A DNA stretch of 48,527 nt from Acidobacteriota bacterium (GTDB taxonomy: Bacteria > Acidobacteriota > Aminicenantia > Aminicenantales > Saccharicenantaceae): NCBI GenBank assembly GCA_014894455.1, contig JADBLN010000030.1, forward strand, positions 13,547-62,073, in the 5' to 3' direction. A model generated the notes under the pieces. The model did not search any database. It was not told where the DNA came from and saw only the letters and a program-made list of their open reading frames with translations. Numbering within the stretch: the first letter of the stretch is position 1; every line of letters starts with the position of its first letter. A program made the position numbers and the translations under genes. Positions 4,472 through 43,384 of this stretch are shown here, in pieces.

Positions 4472-4634
4472 CCTCAGGCCGGGCAGGCCAAGGATGCCCA
4501 TCGTGACGCCGGAGGTCGGCAGGACGGGGTTGATGTACTCGGCCAGCTGGAAGGCGAAGACGGAAGTTTGCCGGGTGATGCCGACGAGGTCGCCCAGGGG
4601 AGCCATGATGGGGATGGTCAGGGCCGCCTGGGCA
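4472..4634 (-). pseudogene. Internal/C-terminal fragment of a YfcC-family transporter gene
   Basis: Encodes AQAALTIPIMAPLGDLVGITRQTSVFAFQLAEYINPVLPTSGVTMGILGLPGL, nearly identical in protein and DNA to the intact gene at 9330-10736 (homologous DNA about 9437-9598). Confidence 0.88.
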
Positions 4635-5912: not shown

Positions 5913-6138
5913 AGAACCTGGTTTCTGTTCCTGTGTTTGTTTACGAGGGGAACTGACATCCGGAGAAAGTCCATGATGAGGACGTGGGAGGGCCGAGCCG
6001 AGGGCCTTCGGCCTAGTCCAGGAAGTAAGATTCTCGACGATCTCGTCGCAGAGGCGTGGAGAGACGGGGAAAAAGGGGATTGTATTGTTGTGCTAGCGAG
6101 GATGATATAGAATTGGGCTAGCATCAAGGAGGGCCGAT

Positions 6139-7326
6139 ATGAAAAAACTATTCTGCTTTCTTGTCGGGATAAGTTTCCTAGTTTCCTGCGGGAGCAGACA
6201 ACCTCAGATCGATAAGGTCATCGAAGACGGAGTAGAGGTCGTCCTGAATCATCTTGAGCCGTACACGCTTATAGGAGAACGAGACAATTTAAATCTTGAA
6301 AAACTATTCACCGTAGATTTTGAACGCGATGAATTTGCAAAGATCGGAATCCCAAGGATCGGAGGATTTAACGTTGATTCCGAGGGTAATATCTATGTTT
6401 GGAGCTGGCCAGGCTCAGAGTATTTCATCTTTAAATTCGACAAAAGCGGGGAATATGTGAATTCATTCGGTCGTAAGGGCCAAGGGCCTGGTGAGATCGA
6501 AATGCTTGTATATCTCAGAGTAAACGCAAAGGATGAAGTCATTGTTTTTGATGATACGAGAAAAAAGATAATTATTTTCGATAATGAAGGTTCGCTTATT
6601 GGGGAGATTCAACTTGAGCGCCATATTCTGTATGCAACGCCTCTTGCCAACGGTAAGATACTAGCTTTGTACGAGCGATTCAATCCGGAGGAAGGAATAG
6701 CTGACCTCCCTGTCGTCCTAATGGCATCTGGTTCCGAACAAGACAGAATTCTTCATTCTGGGGAAAGGATTCCTAATTGGTTTAGAGCGCAGAAAATTAA
6801 TGCGATAACTACGGCTCAAAGCTATAGCCAATGGAGCATCACGGATAAACATATTTTTATCGGCAATAAGGTGAGTGGATATCAATTTCTGGTCTATGAT
6901 TTCAATGGGATGCTCGTCAAAAAGATCAGAAAGGAATACCGTCCTGTGCCAGTTCCTGAAGAAATTAAAAAAAGTCTCCTGAAAGTATTCAATAGATCAG
7001 ATCGCGAAAGAACACAAGTGCTGCCAAAGGTATTTTTCCCTGATGCGATGTTTCCTATTCAGTACTTTTTTACGGATGACCACGAGCGGTTATATGTCAT
7101 GACCTTTGAAAAAGGAGATGGGCCAAGGGCTTTCATGTACGATATCTTCAACTCGGAGGGCTTTTTCATTGGCAGGGTTTCCCTGGATAATTCCGGAAAT
7201 GAATCCAATGAGATATGGGGCGGGCCTTTTGATGTGAGAGCAAGAAACGATAATCTTTATTGCATGAGAGCTAAAGACAGCGGCTACCAGGAATTGACTG
7301 TTTACAAGATGGAATGGACAAAATGA
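6139..7326 (+). CDS. 6-bladed beta-propeller lipoprotein
   Basis: Lipobox FLVSC; NHL/propeller-like repeats (GGFNVDSEGNIYVWS, FDKSGEYVNSFGRKGQGPGEI). Confidence 0.82.
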   Translation: MKKLFCFLVGISFLVSCGSRQPQIDKVIEDGVEVVLNHLEPYTLIGERDNLNLEKLFTVDFERDEFAKIGIPRIGGFNVDSEGNIYVWSWPGSEYFIFKFDKSGEYVNSFGRKGQGPGEIEMLVYLRVNAKDEVIVFDDTRKKIIIFDNEGSLIGEIQLERHILYATPLANGKILALYERFNPEEGIADLPVVLMASGSEQDRILHSGERIPNWFRAQKINAITTAQSYSQWSITDKHIFIGNKVSGYQFLVYDFNGMLVKKIRKEYRPVPVPEEIKKSLLKVFNRSDRERTQVLPKVFFPDAMFPIQYFFTDDHERLYVMTFEKGDGPRAFMYDIFNSEGFFIGRVSLDNSGNESNEIWGGPFDVRARNDNLYCMRAKDSGYQELTVYKMEWTK

Positions 7327-7554
7327 ATGTCCCCTGCGCCGACCCTTCCCCGGCCCTCTGTGCTAGGATCAACTTGGCTTTCGTGAGCGGGCCGGGGAAG
7401 CCCCCACCTTTTTGGTTCCCATCATCAACCCCCCTTTTCGGCCCGCACTTCGGGCCATGGCCGAGAGAGGCCAGGAGAGGCGGGGAAAAGGGGAATTATA
7501 TTGTAGTGCCTGCGATGCTGAGGTAGAGTCGAGCTAGCATCAAGGAGGGCCGAT

Positions 7555-8700
7555 ATGAAAAGAGTTTGCTGTTGTCTTCTCGGGATAAGTTTCCTGGTTT
7601 CCTGCGGGGGCAAACAACCTCAGATCGATAAGGTCATCGAAGACGGCGTAGAGGTCGTCCTGAACCACATCAATCCCTATATCGTTAGTGAAAAACCGAT
7701 GTCTTTCCGTCTGGAAGAGGAATTGCGGATCGATTTGGCGACGGAAGAATTTGTTAATCTTGGCATATCCTTTCCAGATCAAGTCCATGTGGATTCCGCA
7801 GGTAACATCTATATTTTTGATCGCCAGAGGAAGTCGGAATATTTCATTTTTAAATTCGATAAGTCAGGTAGGTTTGTGAGGTCTATGGGTCGATTTGGGC
7901 AGGGCCCTGGGGAAATCCAGGGCGTGACGTCGATTGGCATTAATTCCCGTGACGAAATCTGGACTAATAGTTCTGGTACTAGAAAGATAGTTGTTTACAA
8001 CAGAGAAGGGAATTTGATCAGGGAATCGCGATATGCACCCGTCTGGTGGGCTACGACGCTTCTGGAGAACGGAGGCTATATTGTGCTGGGAAACATCAAA
8101 GAAACAAGCCCGGCTGGCACAGGGTTTCACCTTCGGCTCTTCGACGCCGGTTTTCATGAGGTGAAACTTCTAGATTTTTATGATATGTCTCGTCTGAGGT
8201 CCGGGGGCAGAACGACCGGCTTGATTGTTTCTTTACACTGGAAAGTCCATAAAGACAGGATATTTATCGGCAATGATCAGCGTGGTTATGAAATATTGGT
8301 TTACGACCTTGGCGGGCGACTCCTAAGAAAAATCCGCAAGGAGTACGTCCCTGTCCAATATCCTGAGAATTTCAGGAAAGATACAGAAATCATGGCCAAA
8401 CGCAGACCGGAGATTTATGCGCCGGATTATACACCTCCATTCAATTCGTTTTTTATCGATGACAACGGATATCTTTTTGTCATGACTTATGAAAAAGGGG
8501 CTGAACCTGACGAATATCTGCACGACATATTCAATGAAGAGAGCATCTTCGTCGGAAGGGTTAGCCTCGGATTGTCTGGATCGATGGGGAGGGCGCTTAA
8601 CCATATGCACGCCGTTGCCGAAGGCGACCGATATTACCGCATGAGGTTTAAGGAAGACGATTATCCTGAATTGATTGTGTATAGGATGGTCTGGAACTAA
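7555..8700 (+). CDS. 6-bladed beta-propeller lipoprotein, tandem paralog of 6139-7326
   Basis: Same N-terminus (GISFLVSCG..QPQIDKVIEDGVEVVLNH) and FDKSGRFVRSMGRFGQGPGEI motif. Confidence 0.82.
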   Translation: MKRVCCCLLGISFLVSCGGKQPQIDKVIEDGVEVVLNHINPYIVSEKPMSFRLEEELRIDLATEEFVNLGISFPDQVHVDSAGNIYIFDRQRKSEYFIFKFDKSGRFVRSMGRFGQGPGEIQGVTSIGINSRDEIWTNSSGTRKIVVYNREGNLIRESRYAPVWWATTLLENGGYIVLGNIKETSPAGTGFHLRLFDAGFHEVKLLDFYDMSRLRSGGRTTGLIVSLHWKVHKDRIFIGNDQRGYEILVYDLGGRLLRKIRKEYVPVQYPENFRKDTEIMAKRRPEIYAPDYTPPFNSFFIDDNGYLFVMTYEKGAEPDEYLHDIFNEESIFVGRVSLGLSGSMGRALNHMHAVAEGDRYYRMRFKEDDYPELIVYRMVWN

Positions 8701-9329: not shown

Positions 9330-10736
9330 TCAGTTCGGCCCCCATTTCATGAGGACGGGGGGGACGAGGGATAGGGCCGCGAAAAGGACCCAGAGGACGA
9401 GGAGCGGCACCAGCCACTTGGCCCATTTCTCCCACTTCAGCCCGGCCAGGCCCAGGACGCCCATGGTCACGCCGGAGGTCGGCAGGACGGGGTTGATGTA
9501 CTCGGCCAGCTGGAAGGCGAAGACGGACGTCTGCCGGGTGATGCCGACGAGGTCGCCCAGCGGGGCCATGATGGGGATGGTCAGCGCCGCCTGGGCCGTC
9601 CCCGAATGGACGAAGAAGTTGATGACGCACTGGGAAACGAACATGAGCTCGGCCGAGATGAGCGGGTGGAACTGGGAGATCGTCCCGGCCATGGCCGCCA
9701 GGATCGTGTCCAGGATCCGGCCGTCCTGGGCCACGATCAGGATGGCCCGGGCCGTGCCGATGATCAGGGCCGCGTTGACCATGTCCTTGGCCCCCTCGAC
9801 GAACGATTTCCCCATCTCTTCGTTCTTGAGCTTGCCCGCGACCCCGGCGAAGATCCCCATGGCCAGGAAAACACCGCCGATCTCGTAGATGAACCATTGG
9901 TATTTCAGGATGCCGAAGATCATGACGCCGAAGCCCAGGCCGAAGACCGCCATGACCCGCTTGTGGGCGGCCGTCAGCACGAGCTTCTCGATCATCTGGC
10001 TCCCGACCTGGAGATTTTTCCGCTTCTCGAGGTCCTCTTCGTAGGTCGGGCTCTTCGTCGGGTCCTTGTGGATCCGGCCCGCGTAGCGCATGACGATGGC
10101 GATGACGATGGCCGTCCCGCCGGCCCAGACGATGAGCCTGTAGCCCAGCCCGGAATAGAGGGGCAGGCTGGCGATGCCCTGGGCGATCCCAACCGTAAAC
10201 GGGTTGAAAAAGGCACCGGCGAAGCCGGCCGCCGCGCCCAGGAACGGCAGGGCAACCCCGACGATGGTGTCGTAGCCCAACGACAGGGAGAGCGGGACGA
10301 AGATCAGTATGAAGGGCATGGTCTCCTCGCACATGCCCCAGATGGCGCCTCCCAGGGAAAAAATGATCATGGTCACGGGGATGAAAAGGACCCGGAGAGT
10401 CTTGCTTCGTCCGAACTTCAAGGCCAGATTGTGGATGACCGTCGAAATGGCCCCTGTCTTCTGTATGATGGAGAACGCACCGCCGAAGATAAAGACGATG
10501 ACGATGATGGCCGCGGCGTCGACGAAGCCCTTGGCCGGCGAGACGAAGAGCGCGCCGAGCCCCTGCGGCCGGCTCTCGGTCCGCTGGTAGGACCCGGCCA
10601 CGGGGATAGTCCGGCCGTCCTTCTCCACGCGCTTGTATTGGCCGCCGGGGATGATCCAGGTGGCGACCACGGTCAGGACGACCATGATGTAGATGAGGAC
10701 GAGCGTGTGGGGGAGCTTCAGCTTCTTCAGGCTCAT
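9330..10736 (-). CDS. YfcC/DcuC-like inner-membrane transporter
   Basis: MSLKKLKLPHTLVLIYIMVVLTVVATWIIPGGQYKRVEKDGRTIPVAGSYQ... with many TM helices; ATGA overlap with the upstream gene. The track's 618-aa form starts too far upstream. Confidence 0.88.
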   Translation of the reverse strand: MSLKKLKLPHTLVLIYIMVVLTVVATWIIPGGQYKRVEKDGRTIPVAGSYQRTESRPQGLGALFVSPAKGFVDAAAIIVIVFIFGGAFSIIQKTGAISTVIHNLALKFGRSKTLRVLFIPVTMIIFSLGGAIWGMCEETMPFILIFVPLSLSLGYDTIVGVALPFLGAAAGFAGAFFNPFTVGIAQGIASLPLYSGLGYRLIVWAGGTAIVIAIVMRYAGRIHKDPTKSPTYEEDLEKRKNLQVGSQMIEKLVLTAAHKRVMAVFGLGFGVMIFGILKYQWFIYEIGGVFLAMGIFAGVAGKLKNEEMGKSFVEGAKDMVNAALIIGTARAILIVAQDGRILDTILAAMAGTISQFHPLISAELMFVSQCVINFFVHSGTAQAALTIPIMAPLGDLVGITRQTSVFAFQLAEYINPVLPTSGVTMGVLGLAGLKWEKWAKWLVPLLVLWVLFAALSLVPPVLMKWGPN

Positions 10737-16139: not shown

Positions 16140-16484
16140 ATGGCTAAAGCGCTGCTCGTCCTGTTCCTGATCGTCGTGGCCGCATTCTTCATCTACCGGC
16201 AAACCAGCCAGGCGCCTTCGGAAGAAGAGGAGATGGTCGCTTCCTTTCAGGACCGCTACGCCGTCGTCGTCCAAAAGTTCACGAGCGCCGCGGGCCGGGC
16301 CGGCGCGCTGGGACTCGACACGCTCGCCGACTCCGATTCCGCCGCCGACCAAGTCCTCAAGCTCCGGGACGAGCTGGTCCAGCTTCGAAAGACGCTGACC
16401 GAAGAGAAGGCCATCGGCAAGGCCGCCGCGCTCGCGGAAAAGATCGAGTATTTCTGCAAGAAAAACGACATCATCCGGCCTTGA
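16140..16484 (+). CDS. Small membrane-anchored hypothetical protein
   Basis: MAKALLVLFLIVVAAFFIYRQTSQAPSEEEEMVASFQDRYAVVVQKF...; stop overlaps the TTG start of the next gene. Confidence 0.65.
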   Translation: MAKALLVLFLIVVAAFFIYRQTSQAPSEEEEMVASFQDRYAVVVQKFTSAAGRAGALGLDTLADSDSAADQVLKLRDELVQLRKTLTEEKAIGKAAALAEKIEYFCKKNDIIRP

Positions 16485-18292
16485 CAGCCCAACTTCTCGG
16501 AAAACCCATCCGCACCGGGCGACTGGTCCGGCGGCTGGAGAAAGCGCGCATCGAGGCCGGCGTCGAGAGAGCGGCGCACGGATACATCCTCAAGGGCACG
16601 GTTTCTGGCCGCCCCGGACGCCTGGAGATCTTCCGGACACCCGCCCCGCCGGCGTTCCTCCTCAACAACTGGCAGTCCTGGGGCCCGATGGAGCGCATCA
16701 CCCCTTCGACCAGGTTCCCCGAGCTCGAGGCCATCGTCCGTGATAACAGCCCTTATCTTTTCTCGCCGCTGCCGGACGTCCTTTTGCGCGGCCCGGTGAG
16801 CGACTATTTCGCCGCATGGGAGGGCACGGTCGCCGGGTTCCTGACCTCCCGCATCGGCCACCCGTTCTTCACCGTCGAGGGCGGAGACCTCGTCGGCTGG
16901 GTCGATTATTTCGACGCGGAATTCGACGCACCGGTCGCGCTCGAGCCCCTGGCCGTCCTTTCGGGCGGCGCCGTCGAGGATCTTCTCGACGTCTACGGCG
17001 CACTCGTCAAGCGGGCCAATCGCGTCCGCATCAACGCCTGGAACCCCGTCGGCTGGTGCAGCTGGTATCACTATTTCGGGAAGCTCGTCTGGGACGACGT
17101 CCTCGAGAACCTCGACATCGCAGCCCGCAACCGGAAGTCCTTCCCCTTCGACGTTTTCCAGGTCGACGACGGCTACGAAACCGACATCGGCGACTGGATG
17201 TCGCCCAAGTCGGGCTATCCGGACCTCCCCGGTCTGGCCCGGGCCATCGCCCGGAAGGGATTTAAAGCCGGAATCTGGACGGCGCCGTTCAGCGCGGCCG
17301 CGACTTCCGAGTTGTTCGCCAAGCACCCGGACTGGATGATCCAGGAGGACGGCCGGCCCAAGTTCTGCTACCGGGGCTGGGGGAAACCGATCTACGCCCT
17401 CGATACGACCCATCCGGAAGCGAAGACCTGGCTTCATGAGATGGTCACGGGCCTCAGAAAAGCCGGATTCTCATACCTCAAGATCGACTTTCTCTTCGCC
17501 GCGGCCATGCCCGGGACGAGGCGCAAGCGCGTCACCCCGGTCCAGGCCTACCGGGAGGGCTTGGGCGTCGTCCGCCGGGCGGCGGGAAGGGATTTCATCC
17601 TCGCCTGCGGCGCGCCCCTTCTGCCCTCGACCGGGCTCGTGGACGGCATGCGCGTCGGCGAGGACACCGCCCCCTACTGGAAAACCAAGCCTTCGGGCTT
17701 CCAGGGCCCGAACGCCTACTTCGCCCTCAAGAACGCCCTGCTCCGCCAGTTCATGCACCGGGCTTTCTGGCTCAACGACCCGGACTGCCTGCTCCTGCGC
17801 GGCCGGGAAACCGAGCTTACCCGGAACGAGCGGGAGCTTTACGCCCTCGCCGCCGGCGCGCTCGACAATATGGTCATCGCGAGCGACAAGCTCTCTCTCC
17901 TCGGCCCTGAGGAGAAAAATCTTTTTCTGCGCGCTCTCGCCCTCCGGAGCGGCAGGAGCCGGGTTTCAGGGCTGCTCGGGGAGGACGCTTATGTCATTCA
18001 CTCCAGGGGCGGTCCATCGGGTGACGTACGCCTCGGCGTCAATTTATCCGATGAGGAGGCCGTCGTCGGGGGGATTTCCGTGGCCCCCCGGTCCGGGGCG
18101 CTCCTCGAACCGGAATTGGCGGGAGGAGTCAAGGGACGAGCCTTCGCAGCGGACGTGGACCCCCCGTCCTGCCGGCTTCGCCACCGGCTTTGCAGTGCCG
18201 GTGCTGGCAACCGGCAGCACTGCCACCGGCTTGGCAGTGCCGGTGCTGGAGACCGGCAAGGGCGGTGGCAAGGCCGGGGCCCCGGCCGCTGA
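16481..18292 (+). CDS. GH36-like alpha-galactosidase with C-terminus replaced by a repeat element
   Basis: LLNNWQSWGPM; NPVGWCSWYHYFGKLVWDDV; FQVDDGYETDIGDW; KAGIWTAPFSA; YLKIDFLFAAAMPG. The last ~50 codons lie in repeat sequence (18129-18291). Confidence 0.87.
   Translation: MTAQLLGKPIRTGRLVRRLEKARIEAGVERAAHGYILKGTVSGRPGRLEIFRTPAPPAFLLNNWQSWGPMERITPSTRFPELEAIVRDNSPYLFSPLPDVLLRGPVSDYFAAWEGTVAGFLTSRIGHPFFTVEGGDLVGWVDYFDAEFDAPVALEPLAVLSGGAVEDLLDVYGALVKRANRVRINAWNPVGWCSWYHYFGKLVWDDVLENLDIAARNRKSFPFDVFQVDDGYETDIGDWMSPKSGYPDLPGLARAIARKGFKAGIWTAPFSAAATSELFAKHPDWMIQEDGRPKFCYRGWGKPIYALDTTHPEAKTWLHEMVTGLRKAGFSYLKIDFLFAAAMPGTRRKRVTPVQAYREGLGVVRRAAGRDFILACGAPLLPSTGLVDGMRVGEDTAPYWKTKPSGFQGPNAYFALKNALLRQFMHRAFWLNDPDCLLLRGRETELTRNERELYALAAGALDNMVIASDKLSLLGPEEKNLFLRALALRSGRSRVSGLLGEDAYVIHSRGGPSGDVRLGVNLSDEEAVVGGISVAPRSGALLEPELAGGVKGRAFAADVDPPSCRLRHRLCSAGAGNRQHCHRLGSAGAGDRQGRWQGRGPGR
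18129..18291. repeat. Composite GC-rich repeat element (module A flanks, 99-bp module B inside)
   Basis: tcaagggacgagccttcgc.gcgga...gccccggccgctg boundaries shared with 29583-29653; internal 18181-18279 identical to 41629-41727. Confidence 0.88.
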
Positions 18293-18320
18293 GGAAGAAT
18301 AATGGCGGGAAAGGCGGGAA

Positions 18321-19657: not shown

Positions 19658-19826
19658 GAGGGGGTGAAGCCTACTTTCTGCGCGGCTTTTTCGGAGGGGG
19701 TCAAACCTACCTTTTACACCCTATTTGACCCGAAAGGTGTAAAAGGTAGGTTTGACCCCATCTTAGGTTTTCCTCCTCGCCGTTGTCCCCTTGCCGAGGT
19801 GAGCAGAAAGTAAGTTTGACCCCCTC
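19658..19826. repeat. Nested double inverted repeat, REP-like family 2 (GAGGGGGTCAAACCTACCTTTT)
   Basis: Outer arms 19658-19681 / 19803-19826 (21/24 complementary) enclose inner arms 19697-19720 / 19736-19759 (24/24). Confidence 0.93.
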
Positions 19827-19869
19827 TGGCTTCCGGTGTAACCTTTTTCCCGAAGGGCGGTAATTATCC

Positions 19870-29582: not shown

Positions 29583-29653
29583 CAGCGGCCGGGGCGGGCG
29601 GGCCCCCGGGCTTGCCCGGGGATCCGCTTCCGCCGCGAAGGCTCGTCCCTTGA
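29583..29653. repeat. Short copy of composite GC-rich element (module A only)
   Basis: Reverse complement starts tcaagggacgagccttcgcggcgga and ends gccccggccgctg, as in 18129-18291. Confidence 0.8.
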
Positions 29654-29716
29654 TGCCTTGTTTCGGAGGGCTCATCGCGAGTATGCTTCGTGGGCACGGA
29701 CGAAAGAGGTGAAGGC

Positions 29717-30973: not shown

Positions 30974-33900
30974 TTATCTCAATAGCCGGACGGTCTGGAT
31001 CTCGAAGGACTTGAGCCGGACGGGGATCGACTCGGCCTCGACGGTTTCACTGCCACCCGTCCGCCTGGTCGTTATACCGAGGAAGAATCCACTTGCCAGC
31101 CGCACATCCGTGGCCCTGCCGGCGATCTCCCGAAGGCGGGCGACGGGTGTTCCGTCGGCGTCGAGCCAGAGCGCCTGGACGATGACGTTGGGCTGGTCGA
31201 CGGACAAGAACGATTCCCCCGCCGTCGTGATCCGGCCTTTGTTCCGGGCCGGGATCCAAGTCGCGATGAGCGGCGTGTGGACATCCCAGCCGAATCGGGA
31301 GGCGGCGACACGGTCCGAAGCGGGGGCCGCGCCGTTACCTGGATCGGCAGGCGGAGCGCTCGTCAGGCTATAGCGGAATTCGATTCGTCCCTCCTGGCTC
31401 GCCTTGAAATTCGTCATCCAATAGTTGTTCATGGCATAGGAAAAAACCCAGGCGTTCGCGAGGTCGAGGCGCGTGAGCCATTTTCCCGTGTTGATGTCGC
31501 CGAACTGGACGAGCGGCGCCTCTACGGGAGACCAGACGACCCGGGCGTCCTTTCCGGAAAACTCGACCCAGTTTTGGACCGTGTGCCAATCGAGGGTCGT
31601 GCCGGAGAGCTGTTCGGCCCCCGGGGCCATGTCGGCGTCGGCGATCTCGAACCGGACGTTCGGCCCGACCTGCCCCGATACGCCCGCCTCCGGCCGCTTT
31701 TCCCTGAGCGGGGAGGAAAGCGGACCGAGCTTGGCGCTGAGCGCGCCGGGCAACCCCGGCCCGACTTCGAACGGAAAGGCGAAATAGACGGCCTCGGGCG
31801 CGAACGTTTCCTCTTTATCGAGAATGTTGACGAGGTCGACGCGCTTGACGTCGTCGTAGAGGATGATGCGTTGCTCGAGTGACGGGCACATCTTCGGCGA
31901 ACTCTTGATGATGAGGCTTGCGGCCACCGGCCCCTGCCAGCCGGCCTCGACCTTGGCCGACTCGGGCGACCAGCGGTTGAACGCCGCCCGCTTGGTCATG
32001 TCGTCCACGGCCTTGCGGCCGCCGACGGGTTGCTCATAGATGTAGGCGTTGAGCGGCCAGGGGCAGGCCTTGTCGACGAGCTCGCGGCCGAGCTCCTTGT
32101 CGTAAAGACTCGAGATGCCTCCCGTCTTCGCGTCCACGGTGACACGGTAGAAGCGGTTTTCGATCGTATTGCCGCGAAACTCGGAGACCGGTCCTGCCGC
32201 TTGAACCGGCGCCCCGGACGCCTCTCCCGCCGTGACCGCGAACACGGCGTAGCCCATCGACGGGACGTTCTGCGCGAGGACCAGCATGGCGTCATCGCCC
32301 AGCATCTGGAACTTCGCGCCGCTGCCGAGGCGCCGGTCGACGACCCGGAGCTTCCCTTTCGCCTCGCGCAGCGGCCCGGCCGGAAGAGTCACGCGGACGA
32401 CGTCCGTCCTCGGCCAGGAGAGCGGGTTGAAGACGGCGAACTCGAATTCGCCGTCGGCGCTGATGAGCCGGACCAGGGCCTCGGTCCCACGCCGCAGGAG
32501 CGTCCGCGAGGCCTCCCGCGCCTCATAAGCGAAGCTCGACTTCGCCGCCCACTGGCCGCGGGCCAGTTCAGACTGCGGTTCGTCGATCGAATTGTAGGCC
32601 CCCCAGGTGTGCTCGTCGTAGAGCATGGCCAGCTCGTGGGCATCCCGGATCTGGCCCTCCGGGAAGCGGAAGGCCTTAGCCGGGTCGAGATTCGCCGCCA
32701 GCGCCGATATTTTTTCGGCCGAGACGAGGTCGCTGTGGGTCATGCGGTTGAGCCCGGTCTCGAAGGACGTCGAGGCGACGCCGTCGGTCCAGTAGTCGGG
32801 CCAGCCGAGCTTGTGGACGGGGAGTGATTTCCCGTAACCCTTCTCTAAGCGACCGAAAAATTCGCTCATCGTGGCCAGCCGGAGGCGCGGCGAGACGTAA
32901 CGCTCGTTCCATTCCTTGACCAGGTCGGAGAGGCCGCGCCCGGGCGGGCAGTTGTCCGTCGTCCAGGCCCCGATGTTGAAGGCGATGATGTCGTAGGGAT
33001 AATCGCCGCGCGCCTCGAGCTTGGCCAGATAGTTCCCGACTTTCGGGGCGCTTTTCGCGACCGGCTCGTGGAGGAGGAGCTCGTAGTTCCCGAACAGGTA
33101 ATGCTCGCCGTTCCAGTGGAGGATGCGGCTGCCGTCGGGCGATTCCCACCAAAAAGCGTTCGGCCGGCGGAGAGGGGCGCGGGAGCGCGTCTCGTTGATG
33201 CCTGTGGCGAAATAGCGGATGCCGGCCTGGGCGAAAACCTGGGGCAGGGCCCAGGAAAAGCCGGTGACGTCGTTGTTCATGGCCGAGCGGACCTCGAAAT
33301 CGTAGGTCCGGGCGTACTCCCGGGCCAGGTCGACGGAGCGTAGGAGTTCTTCGTGGGAGAAGCCGTCGGACTGATTGAGGTAGAGCCCGGACAGCTCGAC
33401 GCGGCCGGCACGGATGAGGTCGGCCAGGGCGCGGACATCGGCCTCGGGACGGGTCCGGATGAAATTCTGGAGGGCCCAGGAGATCTCGATGTTCCAGCGG
33501 AACCTGGCGTCGTCGGGATAGGCGTCAGTTTGCCGGCAATAGTCGATGACGGAGTCGAGGTATTCGACGTGGTTTTGGGCGACCCGCGTCTGAAGCTCGG
33601 TATAGCCGATGTCCGTGTGGGAATGATGGAAGAGATAGACGGACCAGCGGCGCTGGGGGGCAAGGGTGATCTCGCGGCTGAGGACGGTCGTACCGATCCT
33701 GACCTCGAAGCGCGCCCTGACGGGCTTCGCGGCCTCGAGAACGCGCGTCTCCACGACGTTCCTGCCGGGCTCGAGGCTGAGCGAGGTCACGTCCAGGCCG
33801 AGAGGCTTGCCGGCGATCCAAGCCTTGACGGAGGCCGGCGCGCCTGCGGGGCCGGCCTGGTCGATGATGAGTTGGACGACCTGCTTGACCACCGCCCCGT

Positions 33901-34093
33901 CCCTGACCAGGAAAACGGTCGGGACGACGTCGAGCGCGGGTTTCGTGACCTGGTTCACGGAGGGCCCGGACGCCGGCGCCGTCTGGGACGATGTCTCTCC
34001 ATGGGCGGACAGGACCGGCCCAGCGACAAGCGCGGCCAAGAGCAAGGGGACCGCGCAGATAAGGGCGGCTTTCCCGTTGTTTCTTTTTCGCAT
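30974..34093 (-). CDS. GH38-like alpha-mannosidase, secreted
   Basis: VYLFHHSHTDIGYTELQ...RWNIEISWALQNFIRT...SAMNNDVTGFSWALPQVFAQAGIRYFATGIN; signal peptide. Confidence 0.88.
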   Translation of the reverse strand: MRKRNNGKAALICAVPLLLAALVAGPVLSAHGETSSQTAPASGPSVNQVTKPALDVVPTVFLVRDGAVVKQVVQLIIDQAGPAGAPASVKAWIAGKPLGLDVTSLSLEPGRNVVETRVLEAAKPVRARFEVRIGTTVLSREITLAPQRRWSVYLFHHSHTDIGYTELQTRVAQNHVEYLDSVIDYCRQTDAYPDDARFRWNIEISWALQNFIRTRPEADVRALADLIRAGRVELSGLYLNQSDGFSHEELLRSVDLAREYARTYDFEVRSAMNNDVTGFSWALPQVFAQAGIRYFATGINETRSRAPLRRPNAFWWESPDGSRILHWNGEHYLFGNYELLLHEPVAKSAPKVGNYLAKLEARGDYPYDIIAFNIGAWTTDNCPPGRGLSDLVKEWNERYVSPRLRLATMSEFFGRLEKGYGKSLPVHKLGWPDYWTDGVASTSFETGLNRMTHSDLVSAEKISALAANLDPAKAFRFPEGQIRDAHELAMLYDEHTWGAYNSIDEPQSELARGQWAAKSSFAYEAREASRTLLRRGTEALVRLISADGEFEFAVFNPLSWPRTDVVRVTLPAGPLREAKGKLRVVDRRLGSGAKFQMLGDDAMLVLAQNVPSMGYAVFAVTAGEASGAPVQAAGPVSEFRGNTIENRFYRVTVDAKTGGISSLYDKELGRELVDKACPWPLNAYIYEQPVGGRKAVDDMTKRAAFNRWSPESAKVEAGWQGPVAASLIIKSSPKMCPSLEQRIILYDDVKRVDLVNILDKEETFAPEAVYFAFPFEVGPGLPGALSAKLGPLSSPLREKRPEAGVSGQVGPNVRFEIADADMAPGAEQLSGTTLDWHTVQNWVEFSGKDARVVWSPVEAPLVQFGDINTGKWLTRLDLANAWVFSYAMNNYWMTNFKASQEGRIEFRYSLTSAPPADPGNGAAPASDRVAASRFGWDVHTPLIATWIPARNKGRITTAGESFLSVDQPNVIVQALWLDADGTPVARLREIAGRATDVRLASGFFLGITTRRTGGSETVEAESIPVRLKSFEIQTVRLLR

Positions 34094-36472: not shown

Positions 36473-36527
36473 CAAGAGGGGGTCAAACCTACCTTTTGCA
36501 GCAAAAGGTAGGTTTGACCCCCTCTTG
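36473..36527. repeat. Perfect 27-bp-arm inverted repeat with 1-nt loop, REP-like family 2
   Basis: CAAGAGGGGGTCAAACCTACCTTTTGC-A-GCAAAAGGTAGGTTTGACCCCCTCTTG, between convergent genes. Confidence 0.95.
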
Positions 36528-39930: not shown

Positions 39931-41493
39931 TTAAAAGGTGATGTTGCGGGTCTCGAGGGTCGAGCCGGTCACCTTGGCGATGTTGGCCACGGCCACGTTG
40001 TAATCGACGAGGGCCCGGAGCTCCATCGACCGGGCGCTGGCCAAAGCGTCCTGGTAGGTGAGGACGAAATAATTCGTCGACATCCCCACGGCAAGCTTTT
40101 TCATCTCGGCTTCAAGCTGCCTTGCGGCCAGCTCGCGGGCGATGCGGTAGGCGTCGACGCTCTTGGCCGCGGTTTCGAGGGTCAGGACGGCGTCGCTGAC
40201 CTCGAGGTAGATCTGCTGCTCCTGGTTCTTGAGGCGGGCCTGGGTCTGCTCGAGGTCGAGCCTGGCATAGGTGTAGTTGGCGCGTCCGACGATGTCTCCG
40301 AAGGGGATGGTCAGGGTCAGCCCGGCCGTCCAGTTGTTGTACAGGAACCTGAACGTATCCTTGAACGCCTGCGTGGCGCTGCCCGGGTCGCCTACTGTCG
40401 GCGGCAGGAACGGGTTGGCCGGGTCGTAGATGTATTGCTGGCCGGAGATGCCGGGGCTGGCTTTGACGAGCTGGAGGTCGAGCTGGGGCAGGAGCTGGTT
40501 CTTGGCATAGCGGAAATTGATCCTCTTGGTTTCGATCGTCGATTTCGCCACCTCGAGGTCCGGGCGCCTGGCCATCGCCTTTTCGAAGGCCTCGTCGAGG
40601 GTGATGGCGAACGGTTTGAAGCTGGGCGTGTCGGCGGGACGGAGGTTCTGGCCCTTGGCCGAGGGATCCCCGCCCTGATTGAGGAGGGTCTTCAATTGGT
40701 CCTGGCTGCGCTTGACCACGGCTTCGGCCTGGAGGATATCGGCCTCCCGCCGGGCCACGGTGGCTTCGGCGTTGAGGACCTCGATCGGCGCCTTCGTCCC
40801 GACCTCGACCTCTTTTTTGGTTTTGGCCAGGAGGTCCCGCCCGCTCTGAAGGGCCTGCTGCAGGGTCTTCAGGTTCTCGACGGAATAGACGAGGTTCCAG
40901 TAGGCCGTTTCGACGGAGTAGACCAAGTTGATGAGGACGGTCTTGAACTGATTCCGGGAAACATCGAGGCTGTTCAGGGCCACGATGATCTCCCTCCGGC
41001 TGATCGACCAGCCGAAGTTCCGGAGCAGGGGTTGCGTCAGGGCAAAATTCAGGCGGCTCGTGAAGGACGGATTGTAGCTCTGGAAGAGTTGGTTGTTCTT
41101 CTGATAATCGTAGCTCAAAGAGGCGGTAAAATTTCCCCCGAACGGCATCTGCTGGGCGATGGAGGCGGTCGAGCCCGTGGTCTTTGTGATGTACTTACCC
41201 GAGCCCTGGAGCGACCAGGTCGAGAGCTGTTCCATCCGGTTCCCGGTCAAGTCGACCTGGAACGTCGGCATGAAAAATTGCCGGGCCCGCGAAACCGAGG
41301 CCGAGGCCAGCTCGGGGGTGAGGACCTCGACGGCCACGTTGAGGTTGTTCCTCAGGGCCTGGACGATTGAATCCTCGAGGGTGAGGGAAACGTCTTTCTT
41401 CTCCTGGCCGAGGGCGAAGCCGCTGAGAAGGGCCAGGACGAGGAACACGGCCGAGATTCTTTCTTTAATCATTGCCATCCTCCGATGAAGCAC
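39931..41493 (-). CDS. TolC-family outer membrane efflux protein
   Basis: SLTLEDSIVQALRNNLNVAVE...ALNSLDVSRNQFKTVLINLVYSVETAYWNLVYSVENLKTLQQALQSGRDLLAKTKKEVEVGTKAPIEVLNAEATVARREADILQAE. Confidence 0.92.
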   Translation of the reverse strand: MLHRRMAMIKERISAVFLVLALLSGFALGQEKKDVSLTLEDSIVQALRNNLNVAVEVLTPELASASVSRARQFFMPTFQVDLTGNRMEQLSTWSLQGSGKYITKTTGSTASIAQQMPFGGNFTASLSYDYQKNNQLFQSYNPSFTSRLNFALTQPLLRNFGWSISRREIIVALNSLDVSRNQFKTVLINLVYSVETAYWNLVYSVENLKTLQQALQSGRDLLAKTKKEVEVGTKAPIEVLNAEATVARREADILQAEAVVKRSQDQLKTLLNQGGDPSAKGQNLRPADTPSFKPFAITLDEAFEKAMARRPDLEVAKSTIETKRINFRYAKNQLLPQLDLQLVKASPGISGQQYIYDPANPFLPPTVGDPGSATQAFKDTFRFLYNNWTAGLTLTIPFGDIVGRANYTYARLDLEQTQARLKNQEQQIYLEVSDAVLTLETAAKSVDAYRIARELAARQLEAEMKKLAVGMSTNYFVLTYQDALASARSMELRALVDYNVAVANIAKVTGSTLETRNITF

Positions 41494-41628
41494 ATGAAGC
41501 CATCTTATTATAATACGATTTCGCCGGACTTTCGTTCACGCCGGCCACTGGCTCCCGGGAGTCCTCCTTTTCTCTAACCGGTTATCAACCCATTCGACTC
41601 CCCGGCCTGAAGCCCGGGGCCGGGCTTC

Positions 41629-41727
41629 CCACCGGCTTTGCAGTGCCGGTGCTGGCAACCGGCAGCACTGCCACCGGCTTGGCAGTGCCGGTGCTGGAGA
41701 CCGGCAAGGGCGGTGGCAAGGCCGGGG
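41629..41727. repeat. 99-bp module B repeat, no mismatch to 18181-18279
   Basis: Direct comparison found no mismatch; internal near-duplicate halves CACCGGCTTtGCAGTGCCGGTGCTGG / CACCGGCTTgGCAGTGCCGGTGCTGG with hairpin potential. Confidence 0.95.
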
Positions 41728-41751
41728 TATATACTCAGGGTTAATACTGAG

Positions 41752-41790
41752 CACCACCCACCCCGTTTTAAAAAATCGGTGTGGGTGGTG
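41752..41790. repeat. Stem-loop (CACCACCCACCCCG ... CGGTGTGGGTGGTG)
   Basis: Arms 41752-41765 and 41777-41790 are complementary at 13/14 positions around an A/T-rich loop. Confidence 0.75.
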
Positions 41791-41902
41791 TCGAACGTAT
41801 CAAGGATACAGGAAACCCGGATATTTGTAAAAACCAGGCATAACAAATTTCGATTTGGCACCGTATTTACGTTATGATAGGCCGATAAGTGGAGGCTTGC
41901 CC

Positions 41903-43384
41903 ATGAAAGTCCGTAAACTCGCACCCATCCTGGCCGCGGTCATTCTGACCGTCCTCTCGCTTACCGCGCAAACCCAGGATTCCCAGAGCATGAAGCTCCT
42001 CAAGCTGAAAAGCGCCCAGCTCTCTCTCGAGCTGAAAAAGGCGGATTTCGACCGTTATCTCAAGCTCAAGGAGGACGGCCTGACCTCGGAGGCCGACTTC
42101 GCCCAGAGGCAGACGTCCTATCTCCAGACCCAGGTCGACTATCAGCAGGCCCTGATCAGCTTCATGGGCAGCGAGGCCCGCATCTCGGTCGCCAGCGCCG
42201 TCAAGTTCCAGGACGGAAGCGGCAAGAAATTCGTCCGGGTGGCCTTGCGCTACGCGTCCAAGGAACTCAAGGAGCTGGCCAACCTCAAGATCAGCGCCGA
42301 GGACCTCTTCCCGCTCGACTTCATGAAAGAGATCAAGGACGTCTACGTCTCCCTCCTGACGGAGGGCAAGATCATCTCCGACCCCTACGAGAAGTCTATC
42401 GCCTCGATGCCCATCGAGACCGAGCGCGAGGTGACCTTCCAGCTCCTCAAGGACGTCGAGAGCCTGGACGTCAACGTCTCCTATTCGGGGAAGACGGAGA
42501 AGACGTCCGTTTATCTCCAAAAGGGCGTCAGTGCCAACATCGTCACCGTCAACTCCGCCCAGTTCTCGCAGGAAGCCGACCTCGAGAGCACGGCGACCTA
42601 CGATCTGTCGCTCGAGAAATTCAGCGGCGAGGCCAACATCTTCAAGCTCGAGGCCGTCGCCCTGCCGCAACAGATCACCTACGAATTCAGCGACCCGACG
42701 ACGAGCGCCCGTCTCTCCCAGATCAAATTCAGCGAGGGCATCACCAGCCTGAAGCTCCAGCTCAAGCTCTACCTCCCCAAGAACCCGGACGACCGCGTCG
42801 TTCTCGACAAGCCCCTCGAGTTCTTCGTCCTGGCCCTCGACAACGACCAGACGCTGAAACTCCGCGCCCTCGAGACGGCCGGCGCCGGGATCGGCCCCAA
42901 GGAGATCGAAAGCCTGAAGGCCGGGTCGGCCAAGCTCGAGCTCATCCCTCGGGGCGTGCCCAAGGTTGAAGTCCAGGCCGTCAACCTCTACCACGAGATC
43001 AAGGCGGGCGACAACATCAGCATGGAGGTGACCATCCGCAACACGGGGACCCGCAAGCTCAACAACGTCCGCGTCTACTGCGACCTGCCGCTCAACTGGC
43101 GCGTCGAGATCAAGCCGGACCTCCTGCCAACCCTGGAGCAGAACAAGGACGAGGTCGTCAGCATCAAGTTCCAGCCCCCGGCCGGCGTTTCCGTCGGCGA
43201 TTACGAGCCGAAGATCCGGACCGACGCCGTCGCCGACAACCGGCGCGTCGAGTCAGAGGACAAGATCGTCCGCATCCACATCACCTCGAAGGCCAACGTC
43301 CTCGGCATCGGGGCCCTGGTCCTGCTCCTCGTCGGGCTCCTCGTCGGCATTGTCGTCTTCGGCATCAAGCTGACGCGGCGGTAA
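41903..43384 (+). CDS. Secreted protein with NEW3/CARDB-like Ig domain and C-terminal TM anchor
   Basis: AGDNISMEVTIRNTGTRKLNNVRVYCDLPLNWRVEIKPDLLPTLEQNKDEVVSIKFQPPAGVSVGDYEPKI then VLGIGALVLLLVGLLVGIVVFGIKLTRR; start at 41903. Confidence 0.75.
   Translation: MKVRKLAPILAAVILTVLSLTAQTQDSQSMKLLKLKSAQLSLELKKADFDRYLKLKEDGLTSEADFAQRQTSYLQTQVDYQQALISFMGSEARISVASAVKFQDGSGKKFVRVALRYASKELKELANLKISAEDLFPLDFMKEIKDVYVSLLTEGKIISDPYEKSIASMPIETEREVTFQLLKDVESLDVNVSYSGKTEKTSVYLQKGVSANIVTVNSAQFSQEADLESTATYDLSLEKFSGEANIFKLEAVALPQQITYEFSDPTTSARLSQIKFSEGITSLKLQLKLYLPKNPDDRVVLDKPLEFFVLALDNDQTLKLRALETAGAGIGPKEIESLKAGSAKLELIPRGVPKVEVQAVNLYHEIKAGDNISMEVTIRNTGTRKLNNVRVYCDLPLNWRVEIKPDLLPTLEQNKDEVVSIKFQPPAGVSVGDYEPKIRTDAVADNRRVESEDKIVRIHITSKANVLGIGALVLLLVGLLVGIVVFGIKLTRR

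Follow-up and report, generated by a model that had tools for sequence, protein, structure and literature searches.

Why does a 99-bp block recur without a single mismatch at two sites of one bacterial contig? The block lies in the window, by which we mean the whole stretch of 48,527 nucleotides that was analysed, taken from a Candidatus Aminicenantes genome (G000; a MAG draft of 2.95 Mb in 125 contigs, 96% complete). Its two copies, at 41629-41727 and 18181-18279, both on the forward strand, agree at 99/99 bases, as a first-pass annotation had claimed, and the exact match stops at both edges; with an E value of 2.5e-53 within the window, the match is not due to chance. The same annotation had described two near-identical halves of about 42 bp in each copy, each able to fold, and this description holds, as the halves share 36 nt at 92% identity with a spacing of 42, and the single-strand DNA fold calculated for 41617-41727 (-41 kcal/mol, z = -4.0) was matched by 0/200 shuffles. 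Judged from sequence comparison, the block is probably a copy of a mobile repeat, non-autonomous and able to form hairpins, here termed B, which is nested in further units termed P, A and C and has recently spread in a clade of three Candidatus Aminicenantes species.

As a correction to the first reading, the 99-bp block is not itself the mobile unit: it sits within P or C, which may in turn sit within A; mobility as such stood. It is made of two consecutive B units, spaced by 42 bp, together with the right end of P. B is a 33-bp core nested in P after CTTCCCA. P is 36 bp long (CCGGGCTTCCCAGTCCCGGTCCTGGCAAGGCCGGGG), and in most copies the hairpin at its centre has a constant 21 bp. One consistent set of P ends (CCGGGCTTCCC...GGCCGGGG) accounts for four junctions, and ends put at CCGGG and CCGGGG fit all four junctions that have both empty and filled forms; this placement derives from alignments and is probably correct to within the few bases that can slide at GC-rich junctions. 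P junctions have 2 to 8 bp of shared sequence, varying with the site. A spans about 105 bp (TCAACCCATTCGACT...GTCGAACGTATCA), and in its fold (z = -5.8) an outer stem encloses three hairpins, the third of which occurs as 44 distinct sequences among 50 copies with pairing kept (paired fraction 0.73, vs 0.61 in chimeras of two copies and 0.48 in shuffles). About 30 further A loci were listed in G000, a list that, like the one for P, depends on similarity thresholds. Some A copies (L067, L071, L075, L209, L215) have longer flanks (GGCGTGAAGAAT...CACCGCAGCG) in common, so that A appears nested in yet another repeat. C is a composite of 70-200 bp with fixed ends (GTCAAGGGACGAGCC...GGGGCCCCGGCCGCTG) and a variable centre, which may be a minimal hairpin, P, P+B, or another cassette found in both orientations; the inner cassette has opposite orientations, for example, in the copies at L163 7314 and 19180 (G000:C85). 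An Rfam search of the window returned one tRNA and no other family.

Compared with the rest of the window's own genome, the stretch 41600-41760 has 49 matches, a total that includes those to B as well as those to the adjoining part of A, which identifies a dispersed repeat. Among 40 genomes searched (its own and 39 relatives; MAG drafts, with few close genomes among them), B has 20 matches in G000, 13 in G004 and 4 in G010, and no match in the 37 other relatives. These three, the sole species with the repeat in this set, belong to the same genus of Candidatus Aminicenantes, G004 being the nearest relative compared (92.6% DNA identity to the window over 40 kb). In GTDB r220, where records of the window's own genome are possibly absent, the exact 26-mer CACCGGCTTTGCAGTGCCGGTGCTGG was found only in the Candidatus Aminicenantes MAGs LacPavin_0419_WC70L_MAG_62_11 and RBG_13_64_14. 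The copy count proposed as a check thus gave about 20 copies with unrelated flanks, not two. By a simple hexamer gene model, 16-17 of the 20 copies in G000 and 10 of the 13 in G004 are intergenic, although 0.86 of the window is coding; overall, about 80% of B copies lie between genes. Those in coding sequence are found at the end of a gene or, in frame, directly after a signal peptide. Like REP and REPIN sequences, the units are dispersed, mostly extragenic and hairpin-forming. A long ORF over A+B at G000:C64 was judged to be a start-site artefact of the gene model.

Both window sites are occupied in G000 and empty of the sequence at the orthologous place in G004, and this presence/absence polymorphism supports the recent mobility or gene conversion suggested in the first-pass annotation. 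The genes at both sites are of ordinary kinds. The copy at 41629 is intergenic, as reported there, lying in the divergent spacer between a TolC-type outer membrane efflux protein gene (39931-41478, minus strand, from a gene model; PF02321, E 1.6e-40) and a gene at 41903-43384 (plus strand). The spacer holds an A element (41585-41802, plus strand) split by an inserted P+B of 108 bp, or 36 codons (41620-41727, plus strand); in G004, A is at the same place, P+B is missing and CCCGGGG runs straight into TATA. This P+B insert probably has no protein role. G010 carries an extra 2.6 kb beside tolC, in which neither A nor B was seen; an insertion sequence between tolC and its neighbour was considered there and rejected, as the extra DNA holds a two-component system.

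The copy at 18181 lies inside a coding frame near the ORF end, as had also been noted, so that the described identity in non-coding DNA applies to the tolC copy and not fully to this one, which is partly coding. It is part of a C element (18128-18291, plus strand; GTCAAGGGACGAGCC...GGCCGCTG), and the clean empty site in G004 spans window positions 18122-18293, the entire C+B being missing. By comparison with G004, G009 and G003, C+B lengthened the 3' end of an alpha-galactosidase/GH36-like ORF (16481-18292, plus strand; PF22676, PF02065), taking over its last codons and stop; the G004 protein ends LLEPELGDGTGE* at the insertion point, and the G000 ORF gains a tail of about 50 residues, encoded in another reading of the repeat.

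At a third place in the window (29583-29654, minus strand), C is present in both species, in G000 as a short form that lacks B and has only a minimal hairpin at its centre, in G004 with a long centre that bears B. Elsewhere in G000, A elements at C114 and C112 are missing from G004, and at C108 a P+B within a further repeat is absent there. Hence outer elements stay in place, and internal hairpin cassettes vary between species or copies. The same 99 bp also occurs elsewhere in G004 at 100% identity, vs 92.6% for DNA common to both species. The direction of gain or loss is mostly unpolarised, and some absences in G004 could be losses; polarity is clearest at the in-frame sites described below, where several congeners have no insert.

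The window holds other repeats and length differences as well. Palindromes of another repeat family (GAGGGGGTCAAACCTACCTTTT) occur at 19658-19833 and 36473-36527, and a 174-bp stretch at the former is missing in G004, as is a 74-bp palindrome at 900-975 (GGGGACACAATACC...GGTATTGTGTCCCC). Within a long ORF (30974-33958), about 87 bp at 31675-31756 are extra relative to G004, a multiple of three and thus in frame. Two 160-bp stretches (4474-4633 and 9437-9596) are 93% identical, the latter in a membrane transporter gene of which the former looks like a fragment, and two 202-bp stretches (6050-6251 and 7466-7667; 86% identical) lie at the starts of two neighbouring lipoprotein-like genes.

In three gene families, copies lie in frame at the end of an apparent signal peptide (judged by eye), that is, in unrelated genes and with no counterpart in the orthologues of relatives, which is RPE-like behaviour. 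For a DUF2961 protein and a second secreted protein, all three clade species carry units in differing combinations, and the insert is absent from the orthologues of other congeners with recovered N-termini. The DUF2961 protein reads SAG|AQDDKK with no insert in G011, has P (PALPGPGLGSP) in G010, P+B in G004, and B with part of P lost in G000. The second protein reads QAGL|ADVDS with no insert in G011, has P+B in both G000 and G004, and two P-like units in G010. The third, a beta-propeller protein, has a 35-residue insert in G004 only; its G000 counterpart has no added length but carries GGGCTTCCCACCGG, possibly a remnant of excision or deletion. In the secreted proteins, the inserts probably form a short, unstructured N-terminal linker. 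P, B and the 99 bp contain zero stop codons in six frames. Selection for stop-free frames was considered and rejected, as about half of equally GC-rich dinucleotide shuffles are also stop-free, and the property is therefore not evidence for selection.

Dispersal, recurring ends, presence/absence, nesting and in-frame tolerance of the units are thus documented at the level of compared genomes, and their mobility is well supported. As to how they spread, the units may be moved or copied in the form of single-stranded hairpins. The agent would be either an enzyme acting in trans or template switching and gene conversion, by which one repeat is copied from another while DNA is replicated or repaired. 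Perfect identity between copies would then be a sign of youth or recent copying, and that of the two window copies is compatible with both agents alike. No Y1 protein was found in G000 or G010, and A, B, C and P do not flank the RAYTs examined, for which reason trans mobilisation and inter-repeat copying are both kept as rivals.

Copying without a dedicated enzyme is a serious possibility, if one of somewhat less than even chance. Here, P and B would be copied between palindromic repeats by gene conversion or template switching via short GC-rich homology (CCGGGG, GGCC), which would also homogenise them. Several insertions lie within other repeats or at 2-8 bp of homology to unit ends (CCGGGG at tolC, GGGCC in the DUF2961 gene, GCCGGGYT in the second secreted gene), interiors vary and ends are constant, and no linked transposase was found. 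However, the clean insertion of a whole C+B at the 3' end of the alpha-galactosidase gene is hard to explain in this way, as is A at unrelated ATCA/GTCA sites, the empty forms of which show no repeat.

It is rather unlikely that the units are REP/REPIN-like and owe their movement to a trans-acting RAYT (Y1 tyrosine transposase), either lost from G000 or missing in the assembly. The units are hairpin-rich, nested and mostly intergenic, Y1 proteins occur in 10 of the 13 genomes of the genus, G004 included, and the minus strand next to A reads TGA(T)/TTGAT, which recalls the targets of IS200/605-type elements. The search for a linked transposase that the first-pass annotation had called for nevertheless yielded none tied to A, B, C or P at the loci examined in G000 and its relatives, and PF01797 was found neither in G000 nor in G010 (71% complete). 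As G000 is a MAG split into 125 contigs, its assembly may lack an autonomous partner. At the eight Y1 loci examined (from G004, G006, G009 and G002, with flanking hairpins sought by an exact 11-bp stem), two are bordered by palindromes that belong to other families and the remaining six lack a flanking pair, A, B, C or P never being the flanking hairpin, so that RAYT as the linked enzyme is unsupported at these loci. Nor was a GTAG tag seen by eye at the hairpin foot in the copies of P, B, A or C that were inspected. The two bordered loci are RAYT-like genes with perfect palindromes on both sides, GGTACCAGGTCTACGCAATGCC at G004:C15 (L235 2119-3262) and GGGGACACACAC at G006:C57 (L238 2257-2973).

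A still less probable reading treats A and its relatives as classical MITEs that stem from a DDE transposon, have short inverted ends and duplicate 3 bp (TCA) of the target. Read from the sequences, A has imperfect inverted ends (ACCCATTCG / CGAACGTA), ATCA or TCA flanks it on both sides and is single where A is missing (including a single TCA at the empty sites of C114 and C112), and tandem A copies have one TCAA in common. However, the inverted ends match at only about 9/12 bases, P and B have no clear inverted ends, TCA flanking A would also be expected from an IS200/605-like insertion, and the surroundings of the A loci inspected showed no full-length DDE element with A-type ends. A hairpin-cassette system lacking a dedicated transposase is an equally improbable, speculative proposal, in which fixed-end outer elements would serve as landing sites and inner cassettes would be exchanged by copying; in secreted proteins, the cassettes would provide species-variable in-frame N-terminal linkers that are tolerated at the signal-peptide cleavage site, so that codon-multiple lengths (36, 33, 42 bp) would be selected. 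Segmental duplication or an assembly artefact, which the first-pass annotation had named as what would overturn its reading and to which some copies near contig ends might point, has practically no chance given many copies (about 20 of B, not two) with unrelated flanks and clean empty sites in two independent MAGs, and is excluded for the window copies.

The best-known examples of folding mobile repeats with in-frame insertion into genes come from Rickettsia, and the mobile repeat B with its host units would represent an independent case, in an uncultured phylum. Three sister species with differing unit combinations at the same two signal-peptide sites, and empty orthologous sites nearby, constitute a natural experiment that addresses the gain, nesting and tolerance of such elements, and the defined ends and junctions allow testing of what moves transposase-less palindromes.

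Among known systems, BIMEs and pneumococcal BOX elements are mosaics in which short modules, variable in number, stand between two end modules, and the Aminicenantes elements are modular in a similar way, a likeness of description; we know of no in-frame behaviour of BIME or BOX behind signal peptides. Bacterial MITEs are likewise short non-autonomous repeats, and A resembles them in being flanked by TCA and having short inverted ends, but no parent transposon was noticed at A loci, and P and B differ in their ends. With REP/REPIN sequences and their RAYTs, the units share dispersed extragenic hairpins, possible movement in trans and the presence of RAYTs in the genus; however, no GTAG tag was seen, the RAYTs examined have other palindromes or none beside them, and the tests made thus place the repeat outside the RAYT-linked REPIN families. 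By analogy, the units appear to work most like Rickettsia palindromic elements (RPE) and the CGTC-tagged palindromic repeats, for which no dedicated transposase is known (PMC3733652). The likeness to the latter is one of resemblance only, in that C is sometimes preceded by a C and then reads CGTCAAGGG and that a transposase is known for neither; CGTC repeats are described as single stems, 8-9 bp long and with a loop of 4-5 bases (PMC3733652), in contrast to the composite C of 70-200 bp. RPE are short hairpin-forming repeats found both between genes and in frame within unrelated protein genes (PMC10969869), and the Aminicenantes units are similarly short, folded, intergenic and in frame in unrelated genes. 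They are likened to RPE by behaviour; their host belongs to an unrelated phylum, and they differ in being smaller and nested (33 and 36 bp), with cassette-like interiors that vary between sister species, and in having their coding copies behind signal peptides or at a gene end.
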